From positions 868,001-932,000 of the forward strand of contig NZ_JACVCU010000001.1 of assembly GCF_014518425.1 (NCBI RefSeq): a stretch of DNA of 64,000 bases. The letters are read 5' to 3'. A program made the translations under genes and the position numbers. Below are positions 48,865-64,000 of the stretch, in pieces; position 1 is the stretch's first letter, and each line of letters opens with the position of its first letter. This DNA is from Terrabacter sp. MAHUQ-38 (GTDB lineage: Bacteria; Actinomycetota; Actinomycetes; Actinomycetales; Dermatophilaceae). Under the pieces are notes generated by a model, which worked only from the letters and a program-made list of their open reading frames with translations, was not told the origin of the DNA and did no database searches.

Positions 48865-48867
48865 ATC

Positions 48868-49863
48868 GTGTTTCGTCTTCCCGAGGCGTGGGTGTGGGAC
48901 TTCTGGCTCGTCGACGACGGGTCGGAGTACCACATGTTCTTCCTCTACGCCTCCCGCGCGCTGCGTGACCCGGACGCCCGGCACTACCGGGCGTCCGTGG
49001 GTCACGCTGTGTCCTCCGACCTGGTTCATTGGGAACGCGTGGCCGACGCGCTCGTGCGCTCGGACGCGCCGGCGTTCGACGACCTCGCGACGTGGACCGG
49101 CTCGGTCGTGCGGCACCCGGACGGGCGGTGGTTCATGTTCTACACGGGGTCGACGGCGGTGCCGGGGACGCCGGCGAACATCCAGTCCATTGGGTATGCC
49201 GTGTCCTCTGACCTTCTCGTGTGGGACAAGGCGCCGGGGCCGGTGCTGGCCGCGGATCCGCGGTGGTACGAGAGGTACTCCGACGGGCACTGGCACGACG
49301 AGGCGTTCCGCGACCCGTGGGTCTTCGCCGACCCTGCTGGTGACGGGTGGCACATGCTGATCACGGCGCGGTCCAACCATGGGCCTGCTGCCGATCCGTC
49401 GGACACGTTCGACCGCGGCGTCGTCGGGCACGCGTGGTCTGCTGACCTGGAGAACTGGGAGCTACGGCCGCCGCTCTCGGAGCCGGGGACCGGCTTCGGC
49501 CAGCTCGAGGTCTTCCAGCTCGTCGAGATCGACGGCCGGCAGGTGCTCGTCTTCAACTGCCAGGCCGCGGAGATGACGGCTGCTCGACGCGCGACCGGCA
49601 TCACCCCCGGAGTGTGGGTGGCCTCGGCCGAGTCGGCGCTCGGGCCGTACGGCCTCGCCGATGCGCAGCAGCTGACGGATGACCAGCTCTACGTGGGCAA
49701 GTTCATCCGCGACCGCGAGACCGGGGAGACGAAGTTCCTCGCGTTCGTGAACCAGGTCGACGGCGAGTTCGTCGGCGAGATCACCGACCCCTACGCCGTG
49801 TCCTGGGACGGCGACCGTCTCGTGCTGACGCCGGCGCGCGACATCGCGGGCGTCGCCCGCTGA
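48868..49863 (+). CDS. GH32/GH68-like (clan J) glycoside hydrolase, short form, module 3
   Basis: This 331-residue paralogue of the gene at 40732 has the same order of motifs: WVWDFW (D11), AFRDPWVF (D149) and QLEVFQ (E214), plus the blade motif DDLATWTGSVV shared by both. It begins with GTG three bases after the permease stop, so it is part of the operon. No signal peptide is present, so the imported sugar is probably cleaved in the cytosol. A decayed copy of its central part lies about 125 bp downstream of its stop. Confidence 0.75.
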   Translation: MFRLPEAWVWDFWLVDDGSEYHMFFLYASRALRDPDARHYRASVGHAVSSDLVHWERVADALVRSDAPAFDDLATWTGSVVRHPDGRWFMFYTGSTAVPGTPANIQSIGYAVSSDLLVWDKAPGPVLAADPRWYERYSDGHWHDEAFRDPWVFADPAGDGWHMLITARSNHGPAADPSDTFDRGVVGHAWSADLENWELRPPLSEPGTGFGQLEVFQLVEIDGRQVLVFNCQAAEMTAARRATGITPGVWVASAESALGPYGLADAQQLTDDQLYVGKFIRDRETGETKFLAFVNQVDGEFVGEITDPYAVSWDGDRLVLTPARDIAGVAR

Positions 49864-49914
49864 ACCGCCGAGGTGGGGCTCTTCCCGCCGCTACCTCGGA
49901 AGGCGGTTACCGCC
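49863..49914 (+). terminator. Bulged hairpin at the end of sugar module 3
   Basis: AACCGCCGAGGT (49863-49874) pairs with ACCTCGGAAGGCGGTT (49893-49908) with a 4-base bulge. The palindrome GGCGG-TTA-CCGCC overlaps its end. Confidence 0.6.
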
Positions 49915-49928
49915 AACCGCCTGGAAAC

Positions 49929-49965
49929 GTCGTGCCCGCCGTCGAACTCTGGCGGCGGGCACGAC
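49929..49965. terminator. Strong hairpin before the island
   Basis: Perfect 13-bp arms (GTCGTGCCCGCCG and its complement) around an 11-base loop. It is the last core-like feature before the glycosidase remnant and the lower-GC region. Confidence 0.75.
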
Positions 49966-49987
49966 TTCTGACCAAGCCGCATGGTCC

Positions 49988-50097
49988 GCTGACTGGAGTA
50001 CTGGGAGCTGCGGGACTGCGCTCGGAGCCGGGGACGGGCTTCGGTCAGCTCGAGGTGTTCCAACTCGTCGAGGTCGACGGCCGTCAGGTGCTCGTCC
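49988..50097 (+). pseudogene. Decayed fragment of the module-3 glycosidase gene
   Basis: About 110 bases closely match 49442-49552 of the intact gene: the translated pieces SEPGTGFGQLEVFQLVEVDG and RQVLV are nearly identical to the enzyme around E214. There is no start or continuation on either side. It is a remnant of a duplication or an insertion scar at the border of the acquired region. Confidence 0.85.
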
Positions 50098-50128
50098 TCG
50101 CCCGAGGCGGACCATAGTTCCAAGGCTT

Positions 50129-50455
50129 TCACGCACCGCCGAGTCGGGACGCCTCTTCCCTCCCCCGAGCAGTCAGAGTCCAGACCCCTCGTGTGCTTCG
50201 CCCAGCCACGTAGGGCACGATCACGCCGTCGCCGACCATGGCATTGCGCTCCCAAGCCGCTTGATTCTCCTATTTGACCTCGCGATTCGATGGCTGACAA
50301 CGGCGGTCATCCGCCGTCAGAACGTCACTTAGACGATCTTCCATCGCCTCAAGTACTCGAGCCTTTGTTGCAGATCCTCCGAGGTCGTTGAGGGCCAGCA
50401 GCATGAACGTGCGCAAGACTGCCTGTGGCGTGAGTGGTATTCGATTCCTTCTCAT
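50129..50455 (-). pseudogene. Mrr_N-like winged-helix protein interrupted by one amber codon
   Basis: From ATG 50455 the sequence reads as an Mrr N-terminal-type domain (RIPLTPQAVLRTFMLLALND, LGGSATKARVLEAMEDRL) to a TAG at 50270-50272. The same frame then continues without a further stop to TGA at 50129: ENQAAWERNAMVGDGVIVPY and GRSTRGVWTLTARGREEASR, exactly the second half of this domain. The TAG is one base from TGG, and a Trp would fit the family. The repaired product would have about 108 residues, a stand-alone winged helix without a nuclease domain. It is either a recent nonsense mutation or a sequencing error. Confidence 0.75.
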
Positions 50456-50494
50456 TCATCGACTGTTGGTGTGCCTCGACCCTGATGTGCTGGT

Positions 50495-52105
50495 CTAGGA
50501 CCGGGAGTCGGCGCGCCCCGCAATCTCAAGACCTGTCCTTGTGCCTTCATCCAGGATTGGGGGTGCTGGGATCTCCTCTGAAGGCAAGTGCATGAACGAC
50601 TGAACCAGCTGGCCAAAACGTACGATCTCCTCGCGCAGTGCCTCTTTCCTCGAGTGGTCGGGCAGTTCCATTCCGACGCTGTGGCTCGTCGCAACGACCT
50701 CGACCTTGGCCGGCTGACGCGCATTCATGAGGGTCTGGTCGAACCGGACGTACCGAAGATCCTCCATCTTGATGGCGTCAAGAATCGACCCGTTCTTCTT
50801 GAACTCGCTCTTGTCGAGGACGAGGATCCGCCGGTCGGTGACCACGACGTGCTTCCACTCGTCCCAAGACCACCACTGCCCGATCTTGGCGTCCGCGTAG
50901 GCGAGCAACCTTTCATCTTTTCCGAGCTGCCATCGCAGAACTCGCGGGAGGAGTTCGGGAACGCCTTCGTCCGCGACAACGATGGCGGGCTTCTGGATGC
51001 CCCGCTCGTTGGCTGCGAAGCCATGGAGAAGCTTGGCCGTTTGATCCTGCAGAACCTTCGCTGCCTGGGCAACGTGTTCCGCCGATCGCCTGCCCTTGGT
51101 CCAGGGGATCGTCTTGTCTCCTGGGAGCTCTGCCATGATTCCCAGATGGACAGTGAGAACTGTCAGCAGCTCCTCAGCCCGCTCTAGATCGCGAGTCCGC
51201 TCGACCCGCGCATCGTCCGCCACCTTCTGGAGAAGTAGCCCTGAGTCAGTGTCGTCTTGGCCGGCGACGGCGTAGATGTGGCCAGCGCGCAGCGCCTGGT
51301 AGGTGAACCATGCTTGTTGGGCTTGGAGCAGGCCCTGGGCATCCTGCAGCATCGCCTCCGCATGATGTGTCAGGTACTCGTTTCGGTCCTCGTGCTTCTT
51401 GAGCTTAAGAAGTTCGCGGTTGTGCGCGTCCACCTTGCTCTCAAACAGCCGCCGCGCCGTTCGGAGCTGCGCCTCATGCCCCGCGAAGTTCTGCCAGATG
51501 TGGTCGCTCACCTTGCCGATGTGCCGTGCCTCGTCCACGCCCTTGAGCATGGTCTCGTGCAGGCCTTGGACCTGAGCCCACTGTTCAGCTCGGATGGCTT
51601 TGAGCACCTCGTCAGTGAGTGCGATGTTCTCGCGCACCAAGGAGGAGATCTCTGCGAGCTGGGCCTGGATGGCGAGGAGGGCAACTGCCGGCCCCAAGGA
51701 GGCCAGAACGGCCGTGGCACCCGATGCGCCGGCCGGCATCCACCGGATGGAGTGCGCCATCTTGCCGTTGGCGTCCACGAGGGTGCCGAGGTTCACGCCG
51801 CCACTCGTGAGTGGTTTTGCGGTCTGAAGCATCTTCATCGTCTCCGGGGCGAGCCTCACGAGACCCTGCATCTGCGCGATCCCCTGGAGGGCTTGCCCGC
51901 CCACATTCGCGGCACCGAGGACTCGACTCACAGTGTCGGTCGCTGCGCTCGCTGATGCTCTCGGCAACAGCTCCAAGTCGAAGATCTCGACGCCCTCGGG
52001 CGGGTGGGGCCCGAAGACGAGGCCCCAGCCGTCCTCGACTTCCACGAGGGTGGTGCTCGGCTCGTCCTGAGCCGCCGCAGCGTTGCCGTCGTCGTGAATG
52101 TTCAT
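50495..52105 (-). CDS. Coiled-coil protein with C-terminal PH-like domain, coupled to DUF932
   Basis: This 536-residue protein has a hydrophobic stretch (GATAVLASLGPAVALLAIQAQ, about residues 128-148), a long charged helical region (about 150-340) and a C-terminal bacterial PH-like segment (ERLLAYADAKIGQWWSWDEW, HVVVTDRRILVLDKSEF, about 405-500). No enzyme motif was found. Its start overlaps the DUF932 stop, so the two are made together. Codon use is more relaxed than in the sugar region. A membrane-associated scaffold or sensor in a defence setting is inferred; the function is unknown. Confidence 0.65.
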   Translation of the reverse strand: MNIHDDGNAAAAQDEPSTTLVEVEDGWGLVFGPHPPEGVEIFDLELLPRASASAATDTVSRVLGAANVGGQALQGIAQMQGLVRLAPETMKMLQTAKPLTSGGVNLGTLVDANGKMAHSIRWMPAGASGATAVLASLGPAVALLAIQAQLAEISSLVRENIALTDEVLKAIRAEQWAQVQGLHETMLKGVDEARHIGKVSDHIWQNFAGHEAQLRTARRLFESKVDAHNRELLKLKKHEDRNEYLTHHAEAMLQDAQGLLQAQQAWFTYQALRAGHIYAVAGQDDTDSGLLLQKVADDARVERTRDLERAEELLTVLTVHLGIMAELPGDKTIPWTKGRRSAEHVAQAAKVLQDQTAKLLHGFAANERGIQKPAIVVADEGVPELLPRVLRWQLGKDERLLAYADAKIGQWWSWDEWKHVVVTDRRILVLDKSEFKKNGSILDAIKMEDLRYVRFDQTLMNARQPAKVEVVATSHSVGMELPDHSRKEALREEIVRFGQLVQSFMHLPSEEIPAPPILDEGTRTGLEIAGRADSRS

Positions 52106-53139
52106 GCCGGAAGTCCCTCCTTCACCGTGACCCCGACCGTCGCTAGGGATCGAAGTGTCTTGTCGTCGATGTCCTCGAAGCCGCCGGACGTAGCGCGCAG
52201 CGCATTGCGCTCGGCCCGTGACCGTGGGTCCGTGCGTTTAGCTGGGGCTACGTGGTGCTGGTACGTGTTGATGGCCGCCACCACGCCGTATGCCGTGTTC
52301 CTCCACGGGGCCACGCGGCGGTCCGTTCTCCAGAGCTCATAGACGGCGCTACGCGCGGCTAGATTTCGATGCGTCCTGAACCTCTCGGGGTTCTTCAAGG
52401 GGAAGTGCGCTTCAAGGAATTGAAGCCAATGCTCATCCGTCACCTTGGTGTGACACTGGGCCCGGACCTGCTGTGAGAAGCGGGTAGTGGTGAGCTCGAG
52501 TAGCTGGAGCGCGTCGCGGACGTCGTCTACATCGAACTGGCTGTGCTTCGTGTGCCGGATTCGCAACTTTGCCGCATCCTCGTCCTTGAGCGCCGCATTG
52601 AGCGTGTTATCGCACACGACGACCTGCGCACCCGTGAGATAGGTCGTAGACGACCTGCCGTCGAGGGAGCTCGTAGCGGTGAGGAAGGGGCGAAACGCCA
52701 CTCCCTCTGGAGTCGAGATGGTCTCGGGGACCTCGACCTGGACCCATGCGCGGGCGCCCTGCTTCAGTAGACCGGCTGATCCGATTCCTAGATCGGGCCC
52801 CACGAGATCGGAGATCCGGTCCAAGAGCCATGCTCGGTAGGGGTGAATCTCGTAGGAGCTGCTCACGATGCCGAGAACTTCGAGGTTGTCGGACCTCGTG
52901 ATGGCCTTGTATCCCTCCGCCTTGGTGCTGATGAGGCCGCCTGTGTCTGCGTAGACGTCTACGGCCACCGGATCCCAAGCGAACAGGCGCCTGTTGACCT
53001 CTTCGACCGGAATCGGGCCCGTGTAGTGATTGGGCTCTGAGCCTTGATCCGACTTCCGATAGTGCCAAGCGGTGCCACGCTTCTCCGTGAATCCGATGAG
53101 AACATTTCGGTTGAGCCAACTCATGGACTCTGCTGACAT
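52102..53139 (-). CDS. DUF932 (phage/plasmid-like) protein
   Basis: This 345-residue protein matches the DUF932 family seen on phages, plasmids and islands: DNLEVLGIVSSSYEIHPYRAW near residue 85, a central TYLTGAQVVVCDNTLNAAL and KLRIRHTKHSQFDVDDVRDAL. The ATG at 53139 has AGGGAG upstream. It is followed by the PH-like/coiled-coil gene with an ATGA overlap, and preceded by the methyltransferase gene on the same strand after 148 bp. Its biochemical role is not established. Confidence 0.8.
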   Translation of the reverse strand: MSAESMSWLNRNVLIGFTEKRGTAWHYRKSDQGSEPNHYTGPIPVEEVNRRLFAWDPVAVDVYADTGGLISTKAEGYKAITRSDNLEVLGIVSSSYEIHPYRAWLLDRISDLVGPDLGIGSAGLLKQGARAWVQVEVPETISTPEGVAFRPFLTATSSLDGRSSTTYLTGAQVVVCDNTLNAALKDEDAAKLRIRHTKHSQFDVDDVRDALQLLELTTTRFSQQVRAQCHTKVTDEHWLQFLEAHFPLKNPERFRTHRNLAARSAVYELWRTDRRVAPWRNTAYGVVAAINTYQHHVAPAKRTDPRSRAERNALRATSGGFEDIDDKTLRSLATVGVTVKEGLPA

Positions 53140-53200
53140 CGGCTTGCTCCCTGTGATGTTCTTATGAAGACAGGAGGACGTTATCGTCCTTTAGGTTGCC

Positions 53201-53226
53201 CAGCGGGCCATTTGGGCGGCCCGCTG
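53201..53226. terminator. Hairpin after the methyltransferase gene
   Basis: Perfect 9-bp arms (CAGCGGGCC/GGCCCGCTG) with an 8-base loop downstream of the methyltransferase stop on the minus strand. A smaller AGGACG-TTAT-CGTCCT hairpin lies next to it (53175-53190). Confidence 0.6.
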
Positions 53227-53287
53227 CGTCCCGCCCACCGTAGGACGCGATGGCTCCCATGCGTGCGCTCAGCAGATCGTGGGGTTG

Positions 53288-54769
53288 TCAGGCAGAGACG
53301 CCGAGGACGCCCGCTACGACCTCCGCCAGCTGTAGGGCCAGATAGGGGGGCACTGCGTTCCCCACCTGATGGTACTGCTGCGTCCGATTGCCGCAGAAGA
53401 AGTAGTCGTCGGGGAACGTCTGCAGGCGCGCGGCCTCCCGAACCGTGAAGCTCCGCATTTGGCTGGGATCTGGGTGGATGTAGTAGTGCCCATCCTTTGA
53501 GATGTGCGACGTGATGGTCGTGCTCGGCGTCTTCCACGCCTGCACGCGGAATCTGTCGGTGAAAGGTGCGTCGAGGCTGCGCGCGTTGGCATGGTTTGGG
53601 ATGAGTGCCTCTGGTAGCTGACCTAGTTTCACCGTCGTGCCCGTGGTTGCCTTGGCGGAGAGGTAGGCGTATCTCATCAGGTCAGTGACCATGTGCCCGC
53701 GAGCCTCGTGCTGAACGATGGCCCTGATTCCTGCCTTCGTGAGCCAATGTTCGAGTTCCCCGTCACGGCCCACAGGGGCCGGACCGCCCAACGCCCACCC
53801 GGTTTCGGTGAGCCGAGGACGATATCCCTTGGCTACGCCAGCCGTTTGAAGGCCGGCGTTCCGAATTTCTCGCCATGCGTCCCAGCCATCTTGGCGTGCG
53901 GGGCTGATGCGCGACCGGATGCGGGGCAGGTGCCCGATGACGTCCTCGACATTGGGCGTCGTCGAAGGTTGGAGGATTTTGGAGCGGGCCGCTGAGATGT
54001 CGCGGCGTACCCCGAGCAGGATCACCCGGTGACGTCTTTGGGGCACGCCGTACTCTTCGGCGCGGATGACGTAATCACCCGGGCTCAGGCCCGAGAACAG
54101 CGCGGAGCTGTCGTCGCCGACCACGAAGGAGCGGATCTCATATCCCTCACCAGCGTTTGCGAGGTCGTCCAAGATCATCGAGAAGAGGCGTTGTCCGCGG
54201 TGCGTGTGTGAGAGCAGCCCCTTGACGTTCTCCATGACGAACACCGGGGGACGATGTGTTGCGATGATGTCCAGGTACTCCCTGAAGAGGAAGTGCTTGA
54301 CGTCGTCCTCGAAATCGGGGTCGTTGGTACGCCGTGCGCGTCCGACCAGTGAATACGCTTGGCAAGGGGGCCCGCCGATGAGAACCCACAGGCCTCCCTC
54401 GGCCGAACGGGCCTGAAGCGCCCCTTTGATGTGGGAGGAGGCCCGTGTTCTGTTCTCGGGGCCGAGCTCGAGTTCGAGCACCTCACCGTTGGCGTGGTCG
54501 AGCGCCTTCTGCGCATCGTGGTCCGACGTGAAGTCCTCCCACGAGGTCTCGCCTCTGAGCACCGACTTGTACCGCTGGAGCGCCCGCTCAGAGCCGCGCA
54601 AGCTCCTTACTGCGGCGCGCAGCCGGAGTGTCTTGCATGCGACAGGGTCCATCTCGATGGATGCCGCCGTGGAGAAAATAGCTTCGTCACCGCGACCCAT
54701 GAGGCTGCAGAAGCCCTCGTTGAGCCCGCCGGGGCCGGCGAAGAGGTCAATGACGGGGATTTGCCGCAC
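53288..54769 (-). CDS. DNA (cytosine-5) methyltransferase
   Basis: This 493-residue enzyme has the ordered 5-methylcytosine motifs: I DLFAGPGGLNEGF, IV GGPPCQAYS with catalytic C136, VI MENVKGLL (E180), VIII QRRHRVILLG and X QVGNAVPPYLA. A long insert between motifs I and IV (residues 50-125) is unusual for small solitary enzymes. It starts at GTG 54769 with AGGAG upstream, 62 bp from the divergent Vsr gene. It transfers a methyl group from S-adenosylmethionine to cytosine in an unknown target sequence and could mark self DNA for the neighbouring defence genes. Confidence 0.93.
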   Translation of the reverse strand: MRQIPVIDLFAGPGGLNEGFCSLMGRGDEAIFSTAASIEMDPVACKTLRLRAAVRSLRGSERALQRYKSVLRGETSWEDFTSDHDAQKALDHANGEVLELELGPENRTRASSHIKGALQARSAEGGLWVLIGGPPCQAYSLVGRARRTNDPDFEDDVKHFLFREYLDIIATHRPPVFVMENVKGLLSHTHRGQRLFSMILDDLANAGEGYEIRSFVVGDDSSALFSGLSPGDYVIRAEEYGVPQRRHRVILLGVRRDISAARSKILQPSTTPNVEDVIGHLPRIRSRISPARQDGWDAWREIRNAGLQTAGVAKGYRPRLTETGWALGGPAPVGRDGELEHWLTKAGIRAIVQHEARGHMVTDLMRYAYLSAKATTGTTVKLGQLPEALIPNHANARSLDAPFTDRFRVQAWKTPSTTITSHISKDGHYYIHPDPSQMRSFTVREAARLQTFPDDYFFCGNRTQQYHQVGNAVPPYLALQLAEVVAGVLGVSA

Positions 54770-54831
54770 ACGGTGCTCCTGGGGATGGATCTGTGGTGCC
54801 AGGCTAGCAGTGTGCGGGAAACGGATGGCCA

Positions 54832-55269
54832 GTGGTAGACACCACGCGGAGCGGCGCCGAGCCCGAGAGGACGCCTCCAGACTCCAGACTCAGTGCGAGG
54901 TTCTCGATCCAGGCGCGTGTTTCGACGAAACCCGAGATCTCACTGCGGAGAGAGCTCCATCGCCGCGGCCTGAGGTACAGGGTCCAATTCAAGGTCGCAG
55001 GGCTGCCGCGTCGGAGAGTGGACGTTGCCTTCACCAAGGCACGCCTTGCCGTATTCGTGGACGGCTGCTTCTGGCACGCCTGCCCCGAGCACTGCGTCGT
55101 GCCGAAGGCGAACCGAGAATGGTGGGAATGGAAGTTCGCTGCGAACAAGGCAAGGGATGCTGACACGGATGACAGGCTCAGGAAGCTTGGTTGGCGCGTG
55201 GTGCGCATCTGGGAGCACGAGAGCAGTGTCGACGGCGCCGACCGGGTCTCGTGCTTGTTGAGCAAGTAG
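54832..55269 (+). CDS. vsr: Very short patch repair (Vsr) endonuclease
   Basis: This 145-residue protein has the Vsr fold motifs: TKPEISLRRELHRRGLRYR, PRRRVDVAF with catalytic-type D64, and FVDGCFWHACPEHC with the metal/zinc-site residues. Vsr nicks next to T:G mismatches that arise when 5-methylcytosine deaminates, which explains its place next to the methyltransferase. The GTG start at 54832 has only a weak ribosome-binding site. In some actinobacterial defence loci Vsr-like nucleases may also serve as the effector. Confidence 0.9.
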   Translation: MVDTTRSGAEPERTPPDSRLSARFSIQARVSTKPEISLRRELHRRGLRYRVQFKVAGLPRRRVDVAFTKARLAVFVDGCFWHACPEHCVVPKANREWWEWKFAANKARDADTDDRLRKLGWRVVRIWEHESSVDGADRVSCLLSK

Positions 55270-55503
55270 TCCCGTCCTCGCACGGTCACAGCGAAATGCG
55301 CTGACGACACTGTCGTCACCCGTCGGGCGTTGGACGCCGCGTACTCTTGGGCGCAAGCCGCACGCGGCCAGAGCGCACTGATCGGATTGAGACGCATGCG
55401 CGTGCGCGATTCAGCGACATGTCGCTGATGGGGCAAGAAGTCCGCACGCCGGCTCGGACGACGTGGTACCAATGTGCCTTGTCCGTCGACACGGGAGGTT
55501 TGC

Positions 55504-57345
55504 GTGGCCGCGCCGCAATGGGTCTTTGACCCGGTTCCACCGTCAGGTGCACTCAGTGGAGGAGATCCCAAGTCGTACCTTTTCAGCCCAAATATCGACT
55601 CCCTCGTTCGGGAGGTCGTGCAGAACGCTACTGACCAACAGGCCGGCGATGACGCGGTACACGTCAGGTTCACCCTCCATGAACTCGCCATACCTGATCG
55701 GGATAGCTTCCTTGCCGCGCTCGATTGGCCGCGGCTGCGCGAACACCTTCGGGGCGTCGCCGCGAGCGACTCGCTCATCAATGGCCGAGTGTCTGATGCA
55801 CTGAATGACATCGACTCCGGCAGGCTACTCGTCCTGCAGATCGAGGATTCAGGAACCAGAGGACTTACCGGGCCGGAGGACGGCACGGCAGGGAACTTCG
55901 CCGCGCTGTGCAAACACGTTCTGGTGACTAACGACGACAAAGCCGCAAAGGGTGGCTCATACGGTCTTGGAAAGGCCGTCCTGTGGCGCTTCTCGGCGTT
56001 GGAGACGGTCTTGTTCGGGTCCGCCTTCCATGATGAGAAAGGCGACCAAGATCATCGCCTGTTCGGGCGAACAGAGCTGCCCTTCCACGACGCCGAGAAT
56101 GGCAAGTGGGCCGGCCCCGGGTGGTTCGGTGTTCCGGAGCAACTCCCGGCGGGCCGCAGAGCAAGGTCTGTACGAGAGGCGGAAGCGGCGCAACGGGGGG
56201 ACGCCTTGCTCGTCGGCCGTGAAGCGGCCACCGGGACAGGAACCACCGCGCTCATCGTCGGCTTCTCCGAGCCGGCCTCGGAGCGACCCCGGACGGTGCC
56301 GGAAGTGGTCCACGAAATCGCGCTGTCTGCCGCCAAGTGGTTCTGGCCTCGACTGGGCGACGGCAGTCTCGTAGTTTCCGCTCGAGGTTACGTAGGGGGC
56401 GATCCGGTCATAGACGAGCTCGCCGACCCGGCCCTCGTGGACCCTGGTTATATCGTCGCCGTCGAGGATTCGGTGACGGGTTACAATGCTCTCTCGTCCG
56501 GCGACGTCGCGGAAAAACCCTTGGAGTTCCGCGTACCTCGTCTCAAGACCGACACTGGGAGTGGAGAAGTCGAAGGGCATGTGACTCTGCGCCTAGCGCG
56601 TGTCGACGATGACAGGCCCGCGGACACATCGACCGTTGCCTTGGTGCGCGGGGCTGGGATGGTCGTCAAGTACCACCGAGTGCCCGGAATCCCCCTCCAA
56701 GGTGGCGGCTACAGGGCCGTACTCCTCGCTGGGACTCGGCACGGATCGGATCCGTCCGACGCGGCCATCGAGGAGTTCCTTCGATCGGCCGAGCCGCCTG
56801 AGCACGATGACTGGGTGCACCACACCAATGCTCTGCGCTCTCACTACCGTCCGGGTGGGAAGGCGCGGCTGGACGAATTATGGGGAAAGATCCGGATGGC
56901 TGTCATGGAGATGACCAGCAGCAAGCCGGGTGGGAGCGAAAAAGGGCCTGAACTCCTCGCGAAACACTTCCAGGTCGGCGGAAGGCTTGGTTCCCAGAGT
57001 CAGCGTCACCGGTTCTTGGTCGACTTCGGCAGGATGCGTTTCGACGGCCACGAGTGGACGATCGAGGGTCGAGCACGCCGAACCGCTGGTGACAAGGCGT
57101 GGCACGTGGACATCGGAGCGGCCTTGGCGGGGGAGAGCGTCAAGGTGCCGATGCAACTCGTGAGTGCTACTGCGGATGTTGGAACCGTCGTGTTGGAGCG
57201 AGGTAAGGAACGCGCGCGGGTCACCCTTCCCAACACGTCCACGTCCGTGCGGTTCGTCGTGGTCGCCCGTCCGCATCAGGAGGACGCAGCGCTCGCCATG
57301 GAGTCCACTCTCCGTGTGGAAGCACTACCTCGCGAGGAGGTCTGA
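55504..57345 (+). CDS. GHKL (MORC/MutL-like) ATPase
   Basis: This 613-residue protein has an N-terminal GHKL ATP-binding site: N-box EVVQNATD (E37, N41, D44), G1 box IEDSGTRGL (D115) and G2 box GGSYGLGKAVL (to K157). The rest shows no nuclease motif. The GTG at 55504 is chosen because GGGAGG lies five bases before it. GHKL ATPases of the MORC/MutL group are known in predicted restriction-like systems that also carry methylases and Vsr. It is followed by two unknown genes in an operon and probably acts as an ATP-driven clamp on DNA. Confidence 0.8.
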   Translation: MAAPQWVFDPVPPSGALSGGDPKSYLFSPNIDSLVREVVQNATDQQAGDDAVHVRFTLHELAIPDRDSFLAALDWPRLREHLRGVAASDSLINGRVSDALNDIDSGRLLVLQIEDSGTRGLTGPEDGTAGNFAALCKHVLVTNDDKAAKGGSYGLGKAVLWRFSALETVLFGSAFHDEKGDQDHRLFGRTELPFHDAENGKWAGPGWFGVPEQLPAGRRARSVREAEAAQRGDALLVGREAATGTGTTALIVGFSEPASERPRTVPEVVHEIALSAAKWFWPRLGDGSLVVSARGYVGGDPVIDELADPALVDPGYIVAVEDSVTGYNALSSGDVAEKPLEFRVPRLKTDTGSGEVEGHVTLRLARVDDDRPADTSTVALVRGAGMVVKYHRVPGIPLQGGGYRAVLLAGTRHGSDPSDAAIEEFLRSAEPPEHDDWVHHTNALRSHYRPGGKARLDELWGKIRMAVMEMTSSKPGGSEKGPELLAKHFQVGGRLGSQSQRHRFLVDFGRMRFDGHEWTIEGRARRTAGDKAWHVDIGAALAGESVKVPMQLVSATADVGTVVLERGKERARVTLPNTSTSVRFVVVARPHQEDAALAMESTLRVEALPREEV

Positions 57346-57346
57346 C

Positions 57347-58330
57347 GTGGGCTGGCAGCGCGCCTATCCGTACGCAGAGGACGACAGCGCCCTTGTGGGG
57401 ACAGTCTCGGCGGCGTCGCCGGGCTTGGTGCAGCGATCTGACGGGACATGGGACGCCTTCAGTGAGGAGCTCGCGCTCGCGAGCTTCGCCGTCGAGGTGA
57501 AGGTCGACGAGGAGCGGCTCGCCGCGTGCTTGCCTGATGGGCTCAGCCCCGACGCCTTCGTCGAGATCGCGGTTCGCTTGACAGGATTGCATTCTCGGCA
57601 GCGACGCGAGCTCCGGACGTGGGAATCCGGCCAGCAGAACTTCACGGTCGACCTCGACCCCATGGAGTACGTCGGCAAGGTGGACCTGGACGTCGTGGCG
57701 CGACTGAAGGCGCCAGTGGACCACGTGCCGGGCTTTGCGCACCTGGCGGGGTCGGTACTGGCTCGAGCGGAGCTTGCCACGATCTGGTTCTCCGAGCCGC
57801 CCAAGTCCATCGGTGACACGTTGGAAGTCAGGTGGGAGGACTTCGACAACGACGGCGGCTTGGTCGATGGACAGCTGTTCACCGTGCGAATGGAAGAGCG
57901 GCCCGTCATCCTACTGAACTCGGCCGTCCCGTCGGCATACGACATCCTGAGTTCCAAGGGAACATGGGGTGCTGCTGCGCGGATTCGCGACGCCGTCTAC
58001 GCCCAGATCGTCCACCAAGCGTGGTCGTCCATTCTGTCCCACTGTTTCATGGAGGTTGTGCGTCACGACGAGGGTGAATCGGTGGATACGGTTTTGGCGG
58101 AGCTCGAGGAGTGGCAGGCGCAGGTGCTACGAGCGTGGGCGCCAGCTTTTGAGCCCGGTGAATCCGACCCCGACCTCGCCGTTTCTGCGCTGGTGGAGGA
58201 GGTCCGTGCCACGGGCAGCTTGGTAGTGCTGCAGAAACTTCCCGAAGCGATCCAGGCAAACTGCGTCACGATCTCGGGCTTCAATGGGCTCGTGAAGGAG
58301 TTCGACCGATTTCAGAAGGAACCGACGTGA
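57347..58330 (+). CDS. Unknown protein of the GHKL ATPase operon
   Basis: This 327-residue protein starts at GTG one base after the ATPase stop. The N-terminal half is rich in beta strands (SFAVEVKVDEERLAACL, NFTVDLDPMEYVGKVDLDVV), the C-terminal half is helical (ARIRDAVYAQIVHQAWSSIL). No PD-(D/E)XK, HNH or PLD nuclease motif was recognised. The tight spacing on both sides says it works with the ATPase and the DUF6339 protein. It could be the adaptor or an unrecognised effector. Confidence 0.7.
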   Translation: MGWQRAYPYAEDDSALVGTVSAASPGLVQRSDGTWDAFSEELALASFAVEVKVDEERLAACLPDGLSPDAFVEIAVRLTGLHSRQRRELRTWESGQQNFTVDLDPMEYVGKVDLDVVARLKAPVDHVPGFAHLAGSVLARAELATIWFSEPPKSIGDTLEVRWEDFDNDGGLVDGQLFTVRMEERPVILLNSAVPSAYDILSSKGTWGAAARIRDAVYAQIVHQAWSSILSHCFMEVVRHDEGESVDTVLAELEEWQAQVLRAWAPAFEPGESDPDLAVSALVEEVRATGSLVVLQKLPEAIQANCVTISGFNGLVKEFDRFQKEPT

Positions 58331-59001
58331 CATACCTGATGCGATACGGAAGTGGGCTGAGTGGCAAGCAGCTTCAAGCCGTTCTGCAGGGTGGCCTCTC
58401 CCCCCAGACCCATCCGCTGGGTGCGGACATCAACCTGTCTCCGATGCACCGAGCCGTGGAGGCAATGCGAGCGCCGGATGGCGCCATCAGCCCGACGTCG
58501 GACGGAGAGTTCGCGCCGGTGGTTTACGAGACGTTGTCAGATCTGCCTGACAGACATCTTCTGGACAACAGATTCTGGCAGTGGCTCGCCTGTACCGAGT
58601 TTCGCGAGTACGTGCGCGGTCGCTGGGCCGCGGGCGTGGATCTAGACGTGGACCCGACTCTGAAGCCCAGCCAACAAGCTCGGTTTCTTGGCAACCCGGG
58701 ATTGAACGGTCTGGGAAGAAACGCGCTCTCCAGACTCTTCTGGACGGCGCGGGTCATGCAAGACGCGGATCAGGGCTACGCGCTCACGAAGGCCCTTTTC
58801 ACGAAGCAGGATCTGGCGGTTGGAGTCGTCGAGCGGTCCTTCGGCCTGATTCCCGCGGTAGCCAGGGCGTGCGCGCAACATCTGTCGGCACTGCCCGAAA
58901 AGGACCATCGAGCGGCGCTCAAGCGACTGAACCTCCGCGCATCCACGGTGTCCTTGGAAGGCGCCTCAGAAGCGGACGTCCGGGCGCTGCTCCTAGAGTG
59001 A
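58327..59001 (+). CDS. DUF6339-family-like protein
   Basis: This 224-residue protein starts at a GTG overlapping the previous stop. It has the features I associate with DUF6339: an N-terminal GSGLSGKQLQAVLQGG, HLLDNRFWQWLACTEFREYVR and GLGRNALSRLFWTARV. The family name is from memory and needs a profile search. Proteins of this kind sit beside GHKL ATPases and methyltransferases. A role in an antiphage system is inferred from context only. Confidence 0.65.
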   Translation: MTYLMRYGSGLSGKQLQAVLQGGLSPQTHPLGADINLSPMHRAVEAMRAPDGAISPTSDGEFAPVVYETLSDLPDRHLLDNRFWQWLACTEFREYVRGRWAAGVDLDVDPTLKPSQQARFLGNPGLNGLGRNALSRLFWTARVMQDADQGYALTKALFTKQDLAVGVVERSFGLIPAVARACAQHLSALPEKDHRAALKRLNLRASTVSLEGASEADVRALLLE

Positions 59002-59011
59002 CCTGGTCCGA

Positions 59012-59032
59012 ACCTCAGCCACCTGCTGAGGT
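59012..59032. terminator. Hairpin between convergent island operons
   Basis: Perfect 8-bp arms (ACCTCAGC/GCTGAGGT) with a CACCT loop, 11 bases after the DUF6339-like gene. Confidence 0.65.
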
Positions 59033-59164
59033 CGCGTGTCTCGTTGGGCGTGTCGCTCTGGCAGTTTGTCGGGTTTCAGGGAGCGAGCTGTCCAAGATGC
59101 GCCCGTGCGTCGAGAGCGGAATCACCGAACGCAATTGGAGAACCATGAGGGCTCTCTACCGAGC

Positions 59165-59839
59165 TCACTCTCGCTCGTAGCCACTCGGGGCTGCAAACCA
59201 ACGGCTTGCTTCGAGGTGGCCGATGTAGAGGAAGTGGGCGTAGTCGTTCGACGAGACTGGGCCGAACATCTCTCCGGCCTCGTTGATGTAGAAGCGTCCC
59301 CCAGAGGCCCCCTTTACTGCGGAAATACGAGCTGCTGTCTCGCGCGCGGCCGGCCCTCCAACCTCGTCCGACAGATGGACGATCGCGACTCGCCGCTCCG
59401 AGACCACTCGCTCGTACTTCACGTCCTGAGCCCCGGCCTCCAAGACATAGCGGATCCCGACGTGAGGGCCTGGCCAAGCATCTCCAGGCTGCAGGCCGTC
59501 AGGTGCCGACGGGCTCACGACCACGCCGTCCTCGGTCTTGAACTCGAGCCTCTCGTCGTAGTGACCCGCCCAGTAGCAGCTCCTCCCGTCACCCCCCTTG
59601 ACCAGCACATCACCCCACTCGTTGATGTAGAAAGGACCCCCCGGAACGCCGTTGAGGACCATCTTCACCGCGTTCACCATGTCGGCGAGGTCGCTGTGGT
59701 CGGCGGTCGCGAGAAGCTCTTTCATGCTGTGGCTGATGAAGTACTCGAGCCGGATCTCGCCGTGGGCGCTCACCCTGTACTTCGCATCGCGGTTGACGTT
59801 CGACGGCACCAGCCCGGTGTACGGCGTCAGACCAGCCAT
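59165..59839 (-). CDS. Two-module protein with GG-x-F-Y-I-N-E repeats, third gene of the helicase operon
   Basis: This 224-residue protein contains two copies of a small module: G67-G68-x-F-Y-I-N-E-W-G ... YWAGH (copy 1) and G180-G181-R-F-Y-I-N-E-A-G ... FLYIGHL (copy 2), each preceded by a helix (DMVNAVKMVL, ETAARISAV). Similar segments occur in the C-terminal part of the helicase encoded immediately upstream (3-bp gap) and in the gene at the window end. No catalytic motif is evident. A ligand-sensing or protein-interaction role within the helicase system is inferred. Confidence 0.7.
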   Translation of the reverse strand: MAGLTPYTGLVPSNVNRDAKYRVSAHGEIRLEYFISHSMKELLATADHSDLADMVNAVKMVLNGVPGGPFYINEWGDVLVKGGDGRSCYWAGHYDERLEFKTEDGVVVSPSAPDGLQPGDAWPGPHVGIRYVLEAGAQDVKYERVVSERRVAIVHLSDEVGGPAARETAARISAVKGASGGRFYINEAGEMFGPVSSNDYAHFLYIGHLEASRWFAAPSGYERE

Positions 59840-59842
59840 TTC

Positions 59843-61894
59843 CTACTCCCTTTCCTTCGGCCACGAGAACCCGCCGGTCACGTCGGCGACGAACACGCGG
59901 CCACCCGTTCCTTCGGTCCAAGCATGGCCGAGGTTGTTGACTGAGAACCGTGCGAACCCCCGGTCCATGGCTTCCCAGGCCTCAAGCACCCGCCGGGCGT
60001 TTCCCTCACCCGAAGGGTCGCCACTGCCATCCACGAAGGCGAACTCCGCCCCACCCCGGACAGCCCGCGAGATCTGGCCTCCCCCACGCTGTGACACCTT
60101 GTAGCTTCCTTGCGTCTTGTCGCCCGGGCCCGGGTAGTCCTGGCCCGGTCGGAGTGCTGTGACATCGAACTTTGTCTTCGTCGCTTCCTCGGACAGGGCA
60201 CGAAAAGGTTCGCGGAGCCGGCCGACCAAGACGAATTGCCCTGGATCACCCCACTCCCACACGAGGACCAACAGGTACTCGGGTGTGACACGGAACCTTC
60301 CGCCCTCCCGCCCTCGGACCCGCGCCACCATCTCGGCGACATCCTGCGGATTGACGATCTGTGAGCCGAAGGCGTTGTTGACGACGCCGTTGGTCTTCAC
60401 GGAGTACTCCTGGCCGGTGAGCACGCCCGGCCACGGGATGACGTCCTCGGGCATGCGTTCACCGAGTGCCGCCCACACCTGCTCTTCAGTCGGGAGCGGG
60501 GTCCGAGGCGGCGCCTCCTGCGGTTCGGCGATAGCGGACTCGAAGCGCCATTTCCAGTAGCGGTTGGCGTCTTCGCCCGTCAGGTCGCTCCAGTCGGCCT
60601 TCGCGTAGATGAGGTCATCGACCGTTCCCTCGACGTAGATCAGGTGCATCGTCGAGCTTTTACTCGCCCCGTCGTCGTCGACGACCCGCCTCAGGACCCG
60701 GCCAAGGGCCTGCACGCGTTGTCGAACCGACGATGTCGATGCAACCGAGACGCCGGTGTCGGCCTCGGGAACGTCGATGCCTTCGACGAGCGACTTCACG
60801 GAGACCAGCACGGGAGCCTCGCCGCTGGAGAAGGCGGCGAGCGCGGCACGCCGCCGTTTGTCTGCGAGCTTGGAGTGTTCGAGCTCGACCCGGACGGGTG
60901 CGAGGATGCCGTGGTCCAATTCGGCGGCGGTGAGCTCCTCTCGCAGTTCTTCGAAGAGGCGGACGGCTTCATCGACGCGTTCGTGGAACAGGATGACGCG
61001 GTGACGCTCGCCATCAGCGAAGACCTCCTCCACGATCTGGCGTGCCACCCGCTGGCGTTCGTGCGCCCGGTAGAGGAGATCCTTGCGCTGGGCGGTCAGT
61101 TGGACCCAGCGCCTCGCGACTGCGCCTGCCTCGTGACGGCTTGATGCAAGCGATCGAGCGCGCGCGGTCTCGATGCCCATGCTGCGCAACTCGTCGCCGG
61201 CCTCGTCAACGCGGCGGCTGACTGCGTCGTACCGTCGTTGCTCGTCCGGCGACAGTGCGACTCCGTGGTGGTGGAGAGTGAACTCTGGAAGCCAGCCGGA
61301 CAGGCGTGCGTCCTTCAAGGTGAAGCGGTAAACGATGCTGCCAAGAGCCTGACCGACTGCCTGCTCGTCGTAAGTCAGCAGCTCACCCTCGTCGTTGAGC
61401 TCTTCCCGGTCAGGAGTGGCGGAGAGTCCCAGGCGGTACACCGCGGGCGTGTCGAGAACCTTGCGAAACTTCGGCGCCCCCGCACGGTGGCACTCGTCGA
61501 CGATCAGCATGAGCGGCCCGGCCGAGGCAGCAAGAGCGGGCAGCTTCGAGCTCGCGGTGTTAAGCACGGCCACGACGACGCGCGCCGTCTTGAACGTCGC
61601 CTTTCCACCGGCACCGAGTAGGCCCACATCGGCCTCGGTCAGTGAGGTCCGCGCCACGATGTTGTCGCGCCACTGGCGTGCCAGCGCCTCGGTGGGTACG
61701 ACGATGGCCGCGCGGAGGTCGTTGTCACGCCGCGACGCCTCGGCGAGACAGGCCAGTGCGATCAGAGTCTTGCCGCCGCCGGTGACGATCTCGAACGTGC
61801 CGCGGTACGGCGTCTGGTCGGTGCCAGCGACCCATGCTCGAACGGCGTCTCGCTGCCAAGGGTGGAGCTGGAAACCGGTGGTGGTGATGGTCAT
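59843..61894 (-). CDS. SF2 DEAD/DEAH-box helicase with C-terminal repeat modules
   Basis: This 683-residue protein has the SF2 helicase core: HPWQRDAVRAW, Walker A VTGGGKT, motif Ia VVPTEALARQW, motif II DECH, motif III LSATP, and motif VI QALGRVLRR. About 230 residues follow the core. They contain GGRFRVTPEYL ... FVLVGRL and, near the end, FARFSVNNLG ... VFVADVTGG, which resemble the modules of the next protein. The ATG at 61894 overlaps the XRE stop (ATGA). It is likely a DNA translocase of a phage-defence system; no nuclease domain was seen in it. Confidence 0.85.
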   Translation of the reverse strand: MTITTTGFQLHPWQRDAVRAWVAGTDQTPYRGTFEIVTGGGKTLIALACLAEASRRDNDLRAAIVVPTEALARQWRDNIVARTSLTEADVGLLGAGGKATFKTARVVVAVLNTASSKLPALAASAGPLMLIVDECHRAGAPKFRKVLDTPAVYRLGLSATPDREELNDEGELLTYDEQAVGQALGSIVYRFTLKDARLSGWLPEFTLHHHGVALSPDEQRRYDAVSRRVDEAGDELRSMGIETARARSLASSRHEAGAVARRWVQLTAQRKDLLYRAHERQRVARQIVEEVFADGERHRVILFHERVDEAVRLFEELREELTAAELDHGILAPVRVELEHSKLADKRRRAALAAFSSGEAPVLVSVKSLVEGIDVPEADTGVSVASTSSVRQRVQALGRVLRRVVDDDGASKSSTMHLIYVEGTVDDLIYAKADWSDLTGEDANRYWKWRFESAIAEPQEAPPRTPLPTEEQVWAALGERMPEDVIPWPGVLTGQEYSVKTNGVVNNAFGSQIVNPQDVAEMVARVRGREGGRFRVTPEYLLVLVWEWGDPGQFVLVGRLREPFRALSEEATKTKFDVTALRPGQDYPGPGDKTQGSYKVSQRGGGQISRAVRGGAEFAFVDGSGDPSGEGNARRVLEAWEAMDRGFARFSVNNLGHAWTEGTGGRVFVADVTGGFSWPKERE

Positions 61895-62430
61895 CGGGTC
61901 TCGCGCCACCGCAGCAGTTCCTCGCGGACCGCCAGCTGTATCTCCCGCATGAGCCATTCCCGCATGCGGGGGGCGACGGTCTCGTACACCTGAGTGCTTA
62001 CGCGCTCAACCACGTCGTCGGCTTCGGTAGAGCGCGCGGAGCTCGACCAAGAGCCCGGCCCCCGCTCGCGGGCCGGCGGGGCGCTCGTCCCGTGGACGTC
62101 CTCCCCGGGCGAAGTAAGCATCGGCTGGGGTGCGTCCACAGCGAAGCCGAGCGTCCCGTCAAGAACTGCGAACGGATCCTGGGCGATAGTGATGCCGCGC
62201 TCAAGCATCTCCGCTCGTGACAGCAGTTCAAACGCAGTCAGATCGAGTGCGTCTGCGAGCTTCGAGAGCGCGGCTTGCGACGGGTACTTGCGGCCCTTCT
62301 CGATCTCCGACAGGTAGGCGTAGCTCAGTTGCGTCTTCTCTTCGAGCTCGGTCCGCTTCATGCCTCGCTCGATCCGCGCCACCGAGACCGCCTTGCCAAG
62401 GTACTCGGCAGCCCGCTTATCGGTAGCCAC
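61891..62430 (-). CDS. XRE-family helix-turn-helix regulator
   Basis: This 179-residue protein has an N-terminal HTH_3 domain (AVSVARIERGMKRTELEEKTQL, SYAYLSEIEKGRKYPSQAAL, about residues 14-70), followed by a Pro/Ser linker and a helical C-terminus (RMREWLMREIQLAVREELL). The GTG at 62430 with GGGAGAG upstream gives the usual N-terminus; an in-frame ATG at 62493 falls within the promoter-like A/T-rich sequence. It leads the operon with the helicase and probably controls it. Confidence 0.85.
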   Translation of the reverse strand: MATDKRAAEYLGKAVSVARIERGMKRTELEEKTQLSYAYLSEIEKGRKYPSQAALSKLADALDLTAFELLSRAEMLERGITIAQDPFAVLDGTLGFAVDAPQPMLTSPGEDVHGTSAPPARERGPGSWSSSARSTEADDVVERVSTQVYETVAPRMREWLMREIQLAVREELLRWRETR

Positions 62431-62548
62431 AAAACTCTCCCTCAGGGCCTTGCTTGCTCCAGCGCAAAGCCATAATATTAGTGCTGTTGGCATATCGATC
62501 AGGTAGACCTCACACTGTCAGCCTCAATCTATTCGGAGCCTACTACAC
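62431..62548. promoter_or_regulatory. Divergent promoter region with A/T-rich palindrome
   Basis: This interval separates the XRE-helicase operon from the NYN-WhiB operon. TAATATTA (62473-62480) is a perfect 8-bp palindrome in an otherwise GC-rich setting and supplies a -10-like element on the minus strand. It is a plausible operator for the XRE protein. Confidence 0.5.
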
Positions 62549-63052
62549 ATGGCCGCAGTAAGTGTTACGCCGCTGGAGCGGGAACTGCACCTCATTGACG
62601 TCGAGAACCTCATCGGCACGCCATACTTCACGGCCGCTGCTGTCCGCGCGCTCCGTTCCGCCTACAACTGCGTCAGCCAGGCCGCTACCGGGGCTCTGCA
62701 GGTCATCGGAACGAGCGCGGCCTCCAACGTGCTCATCGCCGCTCTCGCATGGGGAAGCGCGCGCCCCGTCTTCGAGAACGGCCCTGATGGTGCGGACCGC
62801 GCCCTGCTCGCTGCGGGTGAGTTCGCCCCCGAGCGCCGGTTCGGCCGCATCGTCATCGGCTCCGGCGACCACGTCTTCGCGTTCTACGCGGCCGACCTCC
62901 AGAGCAAGGGAGTCGAAGTGACTGTCGTCTGCCGTCCGGAGGCGCTGTCCCGCAAGCTGCTGCTTGCCGTCAACGACGTGCGTTACCTGCCGCACATCGA
63001 CAGCGGGCCGACCGCGCCGGCGAGCCACGGCGCCCTGGGGCGGGTTGCCTGA
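62549..63052 (+). CDS. NYN-domain-like (PIN-fold) protein
   Basis: This 167-residue protein has the acidic pattern of NYN/LabA-type PIN-fold RNases: LIDVENLIG with the first Asp and Asn, GPDGADRALLA, and IGSGDHVFAFYAADLQSKGV with the SGD motif, followed by VTVVCRPEALSRKL. Such proteins are metal-dependent RNases or RNA-binding relatives. The ATG at 62549 is the first start. The stop overlaps the WhiB-like start (TGATG). In the island it could be an RNase effector or a host factor; neither is shown by the sequence. Confidence 0.75.
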   Translation: MAAVSVTPLERELHLIDVENLIGTPYFTAAAVRALRSAYNCVSQAATGALQVIGTSAASNVLIAALAWGSARPVFENGPDGADRALLAAGEFAPERRFGRIVIGSGDHVFAFYAADLQSKGVEVTVVCRPEALSRKLLLAVNDVRYLPHIDSGPTAPASHGALGRVA

Positions 63053-63477
63053 TGGCGGTCAGGCGGGGACGTCCCTTAGCGATGCCCGACCTCCGTGCGC
63101 CGGACATCATGCCGGTTCCGATGGAGCTGCTCGACCGCGGCGCGTGCGGCGGCCGGGCGAGCGTTTTCGACGACGAGAGCGAGACGATGCCCGCCAAGCT
63201 GTTGTGCGCGTCTTGTCCCGTGCGAGCGCGTTGCCTCGACCATGCTCTCGAGTTCGAGGAGTTCGGGGTCTGGGGTGGAACGACTCCCGAGGAGCGTGAC
63301 GTGATGCGCGGCCACCCTTTCAGGTGGACCTGGGAGCAGCGAGTCGAGGCCCAACGGCTTCGCACGGTCTTCAGCCGCGGTGTGGCCGAGGAGATCATCG
63401 CGGCCGAGTACGCCGTGTCCACGCGCTCGGTTCAGCGCAAGAAGATCGAGTACCTCGCGCTCACGGCGGCGGCGTAG
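63052..63477 (+). CDS. WhiB-like iron-sulfur protein with C-terminal helix-turn-helix
   Basis: This 141-residue protein has four cysteines in WhiB spacing (C32, C52, C55, C61 in LLCASCPVRARC) and the GVWGG turn (72-76), so it can bind a [4Fe-4S] cluster. The gap between the first two cysteines (19 residues) is shorter than usual. The C-terminal part (AEEIIAAEYAVSTRSVQRKKIEYL) looks like an extra DNA-binding helix-turn-helix rather than the usual short basic tail. It is coupled to the NYN gene and may respond to redox state or NO. Confidence 0.85.
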   Translation: MAVRRGRPLAMPDLRAPDIMPVPMELLDRGACGGRASVFDDESETMPAKLLCASCPVRARCLDHALEFEEFGVWGGTTPEERDVMRGHPFRWTWEQRVEAQRLRTVFSRGVAEEIIAAEYAVSTRSVQRKKIEYLALTAAA

Positions 63478-63636
63478 GCGACTGCGCCCGGAACGGCATG
63501 CCCAACTCGGCTCTCGGCAGGCAGCCTCGGCAGGCAGCCGGGGGCTCGAAGCACTCATCGTCCGTCTCGGCCCCTCTCGTACCCAAGGCAAGGCTCATTC
63601 GACGAGTGAAACAGGATTGATCGTGGAGCACTGGTT

Positions 63637-64000
63637 CTATCCGGTCGAGTCGAGAGAACCCAAGTAGGTCCAAGTGGCCCCGATCAGCGCCACTCCGGCA
63701 CCGGATTCGTTGAGGATGACGGTGCCTCCGTGGGGCAGCAGGCTTGTCCAGCGACGGGCCGCGGCGAATGCAACCGGTCCGACTTCGTTGGAGAGCAGGT
63801 CGACCGCATCGGGATCATAGAGATCCGCGACGCGAGGCAGGAGCCTCAGCGGCCGCCCCTCTGGCGGGGTAGGCCACGGGTCACCGGGGCGCAACCTGCC
63901 AAGATCCACGCCGACGGCCGTCTCGCGAGCTTGATGGCTCGCGGCCTGAACCGCAATCTGGGCGAGCTGAAGCTCGTCGTGCATCGCCTCGAACTCGGCT
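63637..64000 (-). CDS. Partial gene ending with a GG-x-V-I-L-N-E module
   Basis: The frame is open to the window edge (AEFEA precedes the ATG at 63984), so the start may lie outside. The last 40 residues (FAAARRWTSLLPHGGTVILN then ESG ... WTYLGSLDSTG) match the helix plus GG-x-x-x-I-N-E-x-G ... Y-x-G-x-L pattern of the protein at 59165. The N-terminal part includes a Pro-rich GDPWPTPPEGRPLRLL. The function is unknown, but the shared module suggests that it belongs to, or recognises the same ligand as, the helicase system. Confidence 0.5.
   Translation of the reverse strand, partial: AEFEAMHDELQLAQIAVQAASHQARETAVGVDLGRLRPGDPWPTPPEGRPLRLLPRVADLYDPDAVDLLSNEVGPVAFAAARRWTSLLPHGGTVILNESGAGVALIGATWTYLGSLDSTG

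Follow-up and report, generated by a model that had tools for sequence, protein, structure and literature searches.

Introduction

PbeABCD is a DNA phosphorothioate-linked defense system that uses a superfamily 2 (SF2) motor, and the accessible part of PMC6459918 describes it in both haloarchaea and bacteria. The same part of that source places a PLD domain in PbeA, a protein that is termed an HKD endoDNase in the accessible part of PMC10853773. In Terrabacter sp. MAHUQ-38 we identified a three-gene operon whose helicase core has PbeA as its best PADLOC match (PDLC02707, E 1e-56, residues 24-426), and this helicase shares a repeated protein module with its operon partner and with the product of a nearby gene. 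We favor reading the operon as a mobile, helicase-centered system directed against invader DNA, in which motor and adaptors may assemble via the shared module under XRE control and act by stalling or by effector damage; our confidence in this proposal is about even. The operon lies in a stretch of 64,000 nucleotides (contig 1, positions 868001-932000), hereafter called the window, and all of its genes are on the minus strand:

61891..62493, minus strand: XRE-type HTH regulator, gene 1 of the operon (HTH_3, E 5e-11), in a position that is kept in the two mycobacterial loci described below (L006 and L007)
59843..61894, minus strand: SF2 helicase (ResIII, E 1.5e-24; Helicase_C, E 3.5e-12), 64 and 63% identical to its mycobacterial relatives
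59165..59839, minus strand: module protein (MP), a two-module protein of 224 aa with no match in Pfam, NCBIfam, PADLOC (E 0.1), or PHROGs

The longest open reading frame (ORF) of the helicase opens at 61957 and encodes 704 aa, with the start of its relatives falling at residue 22, which corresponds to 61894. The helicase start overlaps the XRE stop as ATGA, and only 3 nt separate the helicase stop from the MP start. The helicase carries the SF2 motifs Walker A (GGGKT, residue 60), DExH (DECH, 154), SAT (SATPD, 179), and motif VI (QALGRVLRR, 416). PADLOC matches of the XRE protein are to HTH profiles only.

The shared module

The module spans approximately 80-105 residues and occurs in five copies in three genes, two in MP, two at the helicase C-terminus, and one in the gene at 63637. 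These are the five segments, one of them degenerate, that an earlier note on this DNA had picked out in the same genes. They were located with a profile built from 27 module copies, own copies among them, and each was also scored by a profile of all other groups in a leave-one-group-out test with 5000 shuffles per group (left-out scores are given against the best shuffle):

59540..59824, minus strand: module copy MPa (27-copy profile; left-out 33.0 vs 15.4 bits)
59195..59497, minus strand: module copy MPb, the most typical (27-copy profile; left-out 65.8 vs 8.6 bits; model pLDDT 90.3)
60200..60436, minus strand: module copy HELa, helicase C-terminus (profile E 8.5e-20 with own copies included; left-out 29.0 vs 10.2 bits)
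59861..60154, minus strand: module copy HELb, helicase C-terminus, the weakest (profile E 1.6e-19 with own copies included; left-out 11.3 vs 10.0 bits)
63640-63894, minus strand: C-terminal module copy of the 63637 gene (27-copy profile; left-out 22.8 vs 5.6 bits)
63637..64000 (whole gene 63637-64638), minus strand: C-terminal part of the 333-aa protein P0007, with that one terminal module (left-out 22.8 vs 5.6 bits)

From its start, the module consists of L-x-P-G-D-x-W-P-x-P, strands, a helix, G-G-R-F-Y-I-N-E, and then Y-(I/L)-G-H-L, with the opening shortened in HELa and MPa. The repeated pattern noticed earlier is real, but the unit is longer than was claimed, as an L-x-x-G-x-x-(W/Y)-P start lies about 50-65 residues ahead of the GG motif in MPb, HELb, and the 63637 gene. 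For HELb, the weak member, its location and a G-x-x-Y-x-G-P start favor inclusion. Beyond the five copies, none of the 554 window ORFs of 60 or more aa reaches E 0.1 with the 27-copy profile, and at E 0.5 its matches among 3226 ORFs from the window and the related loci are helicases, module proteins, and the 333-aa protein only.

Pairwise profile comparison (E per single comparison) linked MPa to MPb at 8.5e-8 and MPb to the 63637 product at 2.4e-8, with further links from MPb to HELa (1.2e-5), from MPb to HELb (3.2e-4), and from MPa to HELa (1.8e-3). The remaining five of the ten module pairs gave no useful score (E 0.013 to 0.4); these are HELa with HELb, MPa with HELb, and the 63637 copy with all except MPb. 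In the leave-one-group-out test, the best left-out copy beat 5000 shuffles in all 12 module groups (actinobacterial, archaeal, and phage), by large margins for MPb, MPa, HELa, and the 63637 copy and by a thin margin for HELb, whose other two copies score below the best shuffle. Moreover, a model made from 13 actinobacterial copies matches every one of 13 archaeal proteins, comprising 8 module proteins and 5 helicases, at E 5e-12 to 2e-3, with the best of 4000 shuffles at 0.6 and with two related module-less helicases absent from the matches. In the reverse direction, an archaeal module-protein model scores the three MPs at E 8e-11 to 2.5e-6; for the three actinobacterial helicases it gives 0.005-0.05, against 0.13 for the best shuffle. 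An archaeal helicase-module model reaches module proteins at 0.003 at best.

It might be argued that the likeness of the modules merely reflects chance or convergent composition. The weakness of HELb would fit this, as would the outcome when the five actinobacterial groups are used alone: MPb is recovered (best E 1.6e-8) and MPa is marginal (E 0.006, two of three copies exceeding the best of 5000 shuffles), whereas HELa remains at shuffle level (9.4 vs 9.2 bits) and HELb and the 63637 copy fall below the shuffles. Since these groups alone clearly recover MPb only, intermediates from archaea and phages are required. Against the pairwise profiles, the 12 left-out groups, and the 13 archaeal proteins matched by the actinobacterial model, however, a chance origin is very hard to credit, and we reject it for four of the five segments and less firmly for HELb.

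Relatives in mycobacteria, haloarchaea, and a phage contig

A contig scan of 84,980 species seeded with the MP pattern returned two loci, in Mycobacterium sp. NS-7484 (62%) and Mycolicibacter engbaekii (53%), both of which encode XRE, helicase, and MP in the same order as the Terrabacter operon. This order, with overlaps or a 3-nt gap, is found in three of three loci when our own is included. The divergent gene differs: the earlier note had considered NYN and WhiB-like genes as possible parts of the system, but both mycobacterial relatives have a different small protein at that place, which argues against their inclusion. These divergent small proteins upstream of XRE (L006:4962-5468 and L007:4546-5082) have a common Cys-x2-Cys ... 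GWH-(I/L)-TSQ pattern and no Pfam match. The surroundings also contain a PLD-SF2 helicase adjoining a protein of 746 aa that matches sigma-70 region 4 (L006:391-4763), and an AAA_19/AAA_30-type helicase near the L007 operon.

When 72,556 plasmids were searched by tblastn with the helicase as query, 23 records passed 1e-10, and 11 of these were examined. Five are haloarchaeal and carry a module helicase, and six encode related helicases and show no module anywhere at the locus (L012, L014, L019, and L055-L057, six of six loci); the Pseudarthrobacter plasmid among the latter encodes a protein annotated as a sigma-70 factor whose first part matches the helicase (L012:5908-8880). In the plasmids of Halobaculum, Halalkaliarchaeum, Haloferax, Natrinema, and Halorhabdus, the helicase ends in one module, and each plasmid also encodes two proteins of two modules near the helicase. 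The two-module proteins adjoin the helicase in three plasmids, with the second being some kilobases off in Haloferax and Halorhabdus. In the latter two plasmids, the second module protein has an Mrr-type gene as its neighbor and the first has a divergently oriented SNF2 gene, and in Halorhabdus a 1095-aa protein with no Pfam or PADLOC match is encoded between the SNF2 and Mrr genes (L020:7214-10501). Near-identity of two of the five plasmids in this region leaves about four independent archaeal loci. Two archaeal module proteins used as tblastn queries against the same plasmids retrieved 5 and 5 records, the same five that carry the module helicase, although such a search misses the actinobacterial type because it is pairwise; MP and the phage protein P0020 found no match in this plasmid set.

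The earlier expectation that the genes would co-occur across genomes is thus borne out, as XRE, helicase, and MP are found together in three of three loci and helicase and module proteins in all five haloarchaeal plasmids with a module helicase. The seven carriers other than our own encode four modules (each mycobacterium) or five (each plasmid), all within 11.2 kb. Module-only proteins accompany a module helicase in eight of eight loci with complete surroundings; three of these loci were not chosen through the helicase, whereas the five plasmids were, and the reverse module-protein search adds none. In a BLAST comparison of the helicase core only, the five archaeal module helicases rank above the seven others compared, and in a maximum-likelihood tree of 15 helicases the eight module helicases fall on one side of a branch with support of 75/68.

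This arrangement could be explained by modules that act as nucleic-acid-binding target recognition units, with helicase and MP gripping one DNA feature side by side. The presence of several copies per protein, the lack of evident catalytic residues kept across the copies, and the DNA motor as a host protein would all suit such a role. However, the constant company of module-only proteins and module helicase is explained as well or better by joining, and neither Pfam nor the PDB yields a known DNA-binding domain as a match for the module; we therefore regard target recognition as possible but doubtful. The simplest readings are thus that the modules join motor and adaptors or that all of these proteins grip a common target, and joining is rated first because a modules-only protein has no other visible function.

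In viruses, one relative locus was found in the viral contig collection, the 8.3-kb IMG/VR contig L049, where P0019 and P0020 are adjacent (180-1630) and have two modules each. Both match the actinobacterial model (E 7e-9 and 1.6e-25, respectively; the first P0019 copy is weak), and the contig also carries holin, endolysin, and tail genes. MP, the helicase (E 1e-10), and P0019 have no match in the phage collection. These settings raise the alternative that the genes serve a mobile element, through plasmid or phage upkeep, superinfection exclusion, or counter-defense, instead of defending a host. Haloarchaeal copies are on plasmids, in an archaeal search that covered plasmid records only, and two module proteins are on a phage contig. 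Chromosome-sized contigs nevertheless carry the system too (our own is 1.5 Mb), and its neighbors are restriction-like, so a purely mobile-element function seems unlikely to us and host defense is retained as the preferred reading.

In the genome samples, which overlap and in which a limited number of candidates was scored per genome (at most 12-14 for the majority of rows in the phylum and NS-7484 family searches, and 27 in the own-family search), misses are possible. Within these limits, the 27-copy profile recovered one of 186 genomes in the family, our own, and none of 8 genomes of the same genus. A narrower profile recovered 3 of 396 genomes of the phylum at E 0.01, two of them weak, and MP alone recovered 2 of 297 genomes of the order, one of them weak; the weak matches L005 (order) and L009 and L010 (phylum) were dropped. 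In the family of Mycobacterium sp. NS-7484, 4 of 351 genomes gave matches, three of which were judged to be chance. In all three (L044-L046) the match covers a single segment of roughly 30 profile positions within the same conserved protein, which resembles a PhoX-type phosphatase.

Family searches and predicted fold

Searches of Pfam, NCBIfam, PADLOC, and PHROGs assigned the module to no family, in agreement with the earlier impression that it matches no described one. The archaeal module proteins P0015-P0017 have no PADLOC or PHROGs match and only a sub-threshold Auxin_inducible match in Pfam (E 0.03), the phage proteins P0019 and P0020 have no Pfam or PHROGs match, and the Mycobacterium MP gives a sub-threshold DUF7372 row (0.09). 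Sequence comparison with the PDB returned ten rows to E 10, the best (2.3e-4) covering 20 residues of a designed protein; these rows were judged to be noise, seven of the ten being designed proteins by name.

The fold check covered MP. An AlphaFold2 model of the whole protein from three sequences (pLDDT 67) has one element order in both copies at low confidence, and a model of MPb alone, for which 16 module copies served as the alignment, is confident (pLDDT 90.3, pTM 0.80). The predicted order in MPb is bbb-a-bbb, with strands at residues 15-19, 26-33, and 36-41, a helix at 42-62 with a short break at 47, and strands at 67-71, 76-80, and 89-94. Foldseek found nothing at E 0.001 for this model in the PDB or among viral models. 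All 50 PDB rows listed for the MPb module are sliding-clamp entries by title, with a best E of 0.19, TM below 0.3, and rmsd (root mean square deviation) of 9.6-13.6 A, and more than 40 of the 50 PDB rows listed for the whole MP are likewise sliding-clamp entries by title. These values do not amount to a superposition, and we do not infer kinship with sliding clamps (PCNA, DnaN) from them; the dominance of clamps in the match list may be inflated by the many clamp chains in the PDB. As a long shot, helicase and partner modules could pair through a novel fold into a DNA-encircling ring or clamp, an immune machine of clamp and motor distinct from PCNA and DnaN that would have crossed between archaea, bacteria, and phages and would recruit different effectors through fusion with the module.

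The 333-aa protein and the genomic setting

The earlier note had treated the module proteins as three proteins of one locus. Sharing of the module holds, but the window stops inside the 63637 gene, and the gene product belongs to a neighboring gene cluster outside the XRE-helicase-MP operon. This same-strand cluster runs from 63640 onward (L003:640-11999), and upstream of the 333-aa gene it comprises a 186-aa gene, an SNF2 helicase matching BrxHI/DrmD profiles, a type ISP methyltransferase, and a PLD-helicase. The cluster is tied to our finding because the 333-aa protein, the product of its last gene, bears the module.

The 333-aa protein P0007 has no PADLOC or PHROGs match, only a sub-threshold Pfam match (DUF2730, 0.29), and no match among the 72,556 plasmids. 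Five further matches to it (L059-L063) were set aside, as no module was found in them. HEPN RNases are recognized by an Rx4-6H motif inside the HEPN helical bundle; at residue 113 the 333-aa protein has an R-NAEF-H stretch (R-x4-H), with no Pfam or PDB sequence match beside it. It may be an effector recruited by the shared module, a guess made from one genome.

The host genome comprises 5.16 Mb in 18 contigs; the high GC (0.70) and the presence of a WhiB gene suggest an actinobacterial host. In 4-kb segments of the window, GC runs at 0.675-0.751 as far as 48 kb and at 0.63-0.664 thereafter, and GC at third codon positions of picked ORFs is 0.76-0.97 before 50 kb (mostly >0.85) and 0.71-0.85 after, with a pick that favors high values. 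The drop over 48000-64000 is as in an acquired island. At the start of this low-GC stretch (50495-53139), one gene product has a sub-threshold match to a bacterial PH domain and another is phage/plasmid-like (TIGR03299). Left of the operon (53288-59001) are a C5 methyltransferase (DrmMII profile, E 4e-96), a Vsr-type nuclease, and further ORFs, namely one with a PADLOC PDC-M33A match (E 9e-22), one of 388 aa that matched nothing, and one encoding a DUF6339 protein; these genes are probably a separate restriction-like system. On the other side, 62549-63477 holds a divergent NYN-like gene, whose Pfam match (E 1.5e-4) narrowly misses the cut-off, and a WhiB gene.

Proposed function

From the sequences, we infer that the XPB/PbeA-like SF2 translocase would move on DNA, and that the helicase C-terminal modules and the two-module partners would join into a sensor or loading complex that chooses the DNA of the motor. 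The XRE protein would hold the operon in check, as would suit a system whose activity carries a cost. Damage could arise from stalled replication, or from an effector brought in via the module or encoded alongside, for which the 333-aa protein here and the Mrr-type gene beside the module protein in two haloarchaeal plasmids are candidates. Assembly through the module, the sensing of DNA, the effector, and the defense role itself are all putative steps of this proposal.

Several observations weigh against it. No nuclease family match is present in XRE, helicase, or MP in the family-library scan, and the phage contig, which stops some 180 bases upstream of P0019, shows no helicase. The module family is rare in the genomes sampled, and a single origin of the module helicases has weak support. 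With regard to the 333-aa protein, no full-length relative was found in 396 genomes of the phylum, the archaeal module-protein model misses it (2.9, no better than shuffles), and its module may be a chance domain capture. In addition, the archaeal helicase-module model gives the actinobacterial proteins nothing above shuffles.

If the proposal is correct, the module would offer a candidate rule for plugging effectors into such systems. The module is kept with its helicase from actinobacteria to haloarchaea and is thus usable as a marker for further systems, and an operon of three genes is open to direct test.

Comparison with known systems

The solved sequences nearest to the helicase are XPB/Rad25 (E 5e-22 over the motor), and on this basis the operon could encode a helicase for repair or maintenance, assisted by accessory subunits, with no role in defense. 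DUF790 is Bax1, the partner of XPB/Rad25 helicases. Neither MP nor XRE matches DUF790 at this locus, and unlike XPB-Bax1, the helicase has extra modules and an XRE gene in its operon. The sporadic spread, with our own genome the only carrier among 186 of its family, the position in a compositional island between restriction-like genes, and the plasmid and phage settings also speak against housekeeping repair, which we consider improbable, and the anti-invader reading is therefore preferred.

Resemblance to phosphorothioate-related systems was seen in the helicase core. In contrast to PbeA, the 704-aa helicase has no PLD match to E 0.1, its motor match begins at residue 29, and it has C-terminal modules; the partners here are XRE and MP, not PbeB, PbeC, and PbeD, and MP and three archaeal module proteins are without a PADLOC match. 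The helicase core also matches the NCBIfam family TIGR04095 (dnd_restrict_1), but at 144.8 bits, far under the curated cut-off of 600. Membership in PbeABCD, TIGR04095, and XPB-Bax1 was consequently rejected on the PLD domain, the PbeBCD partners, the cut-off score, and DUF790.

With partial literature coverage, no paper was found that names six of the protein accessions, and pSVX82-3 is named in the accessible part of PMC11001535 only for a solitary methyltransferase; the system is likely new in print. Helicase-centered defense is a known kind of system, and what sets the present gene set apart is that it rests on a domain unlisted in Pfam, NCBIfam, PADLOC, and PHROGs.

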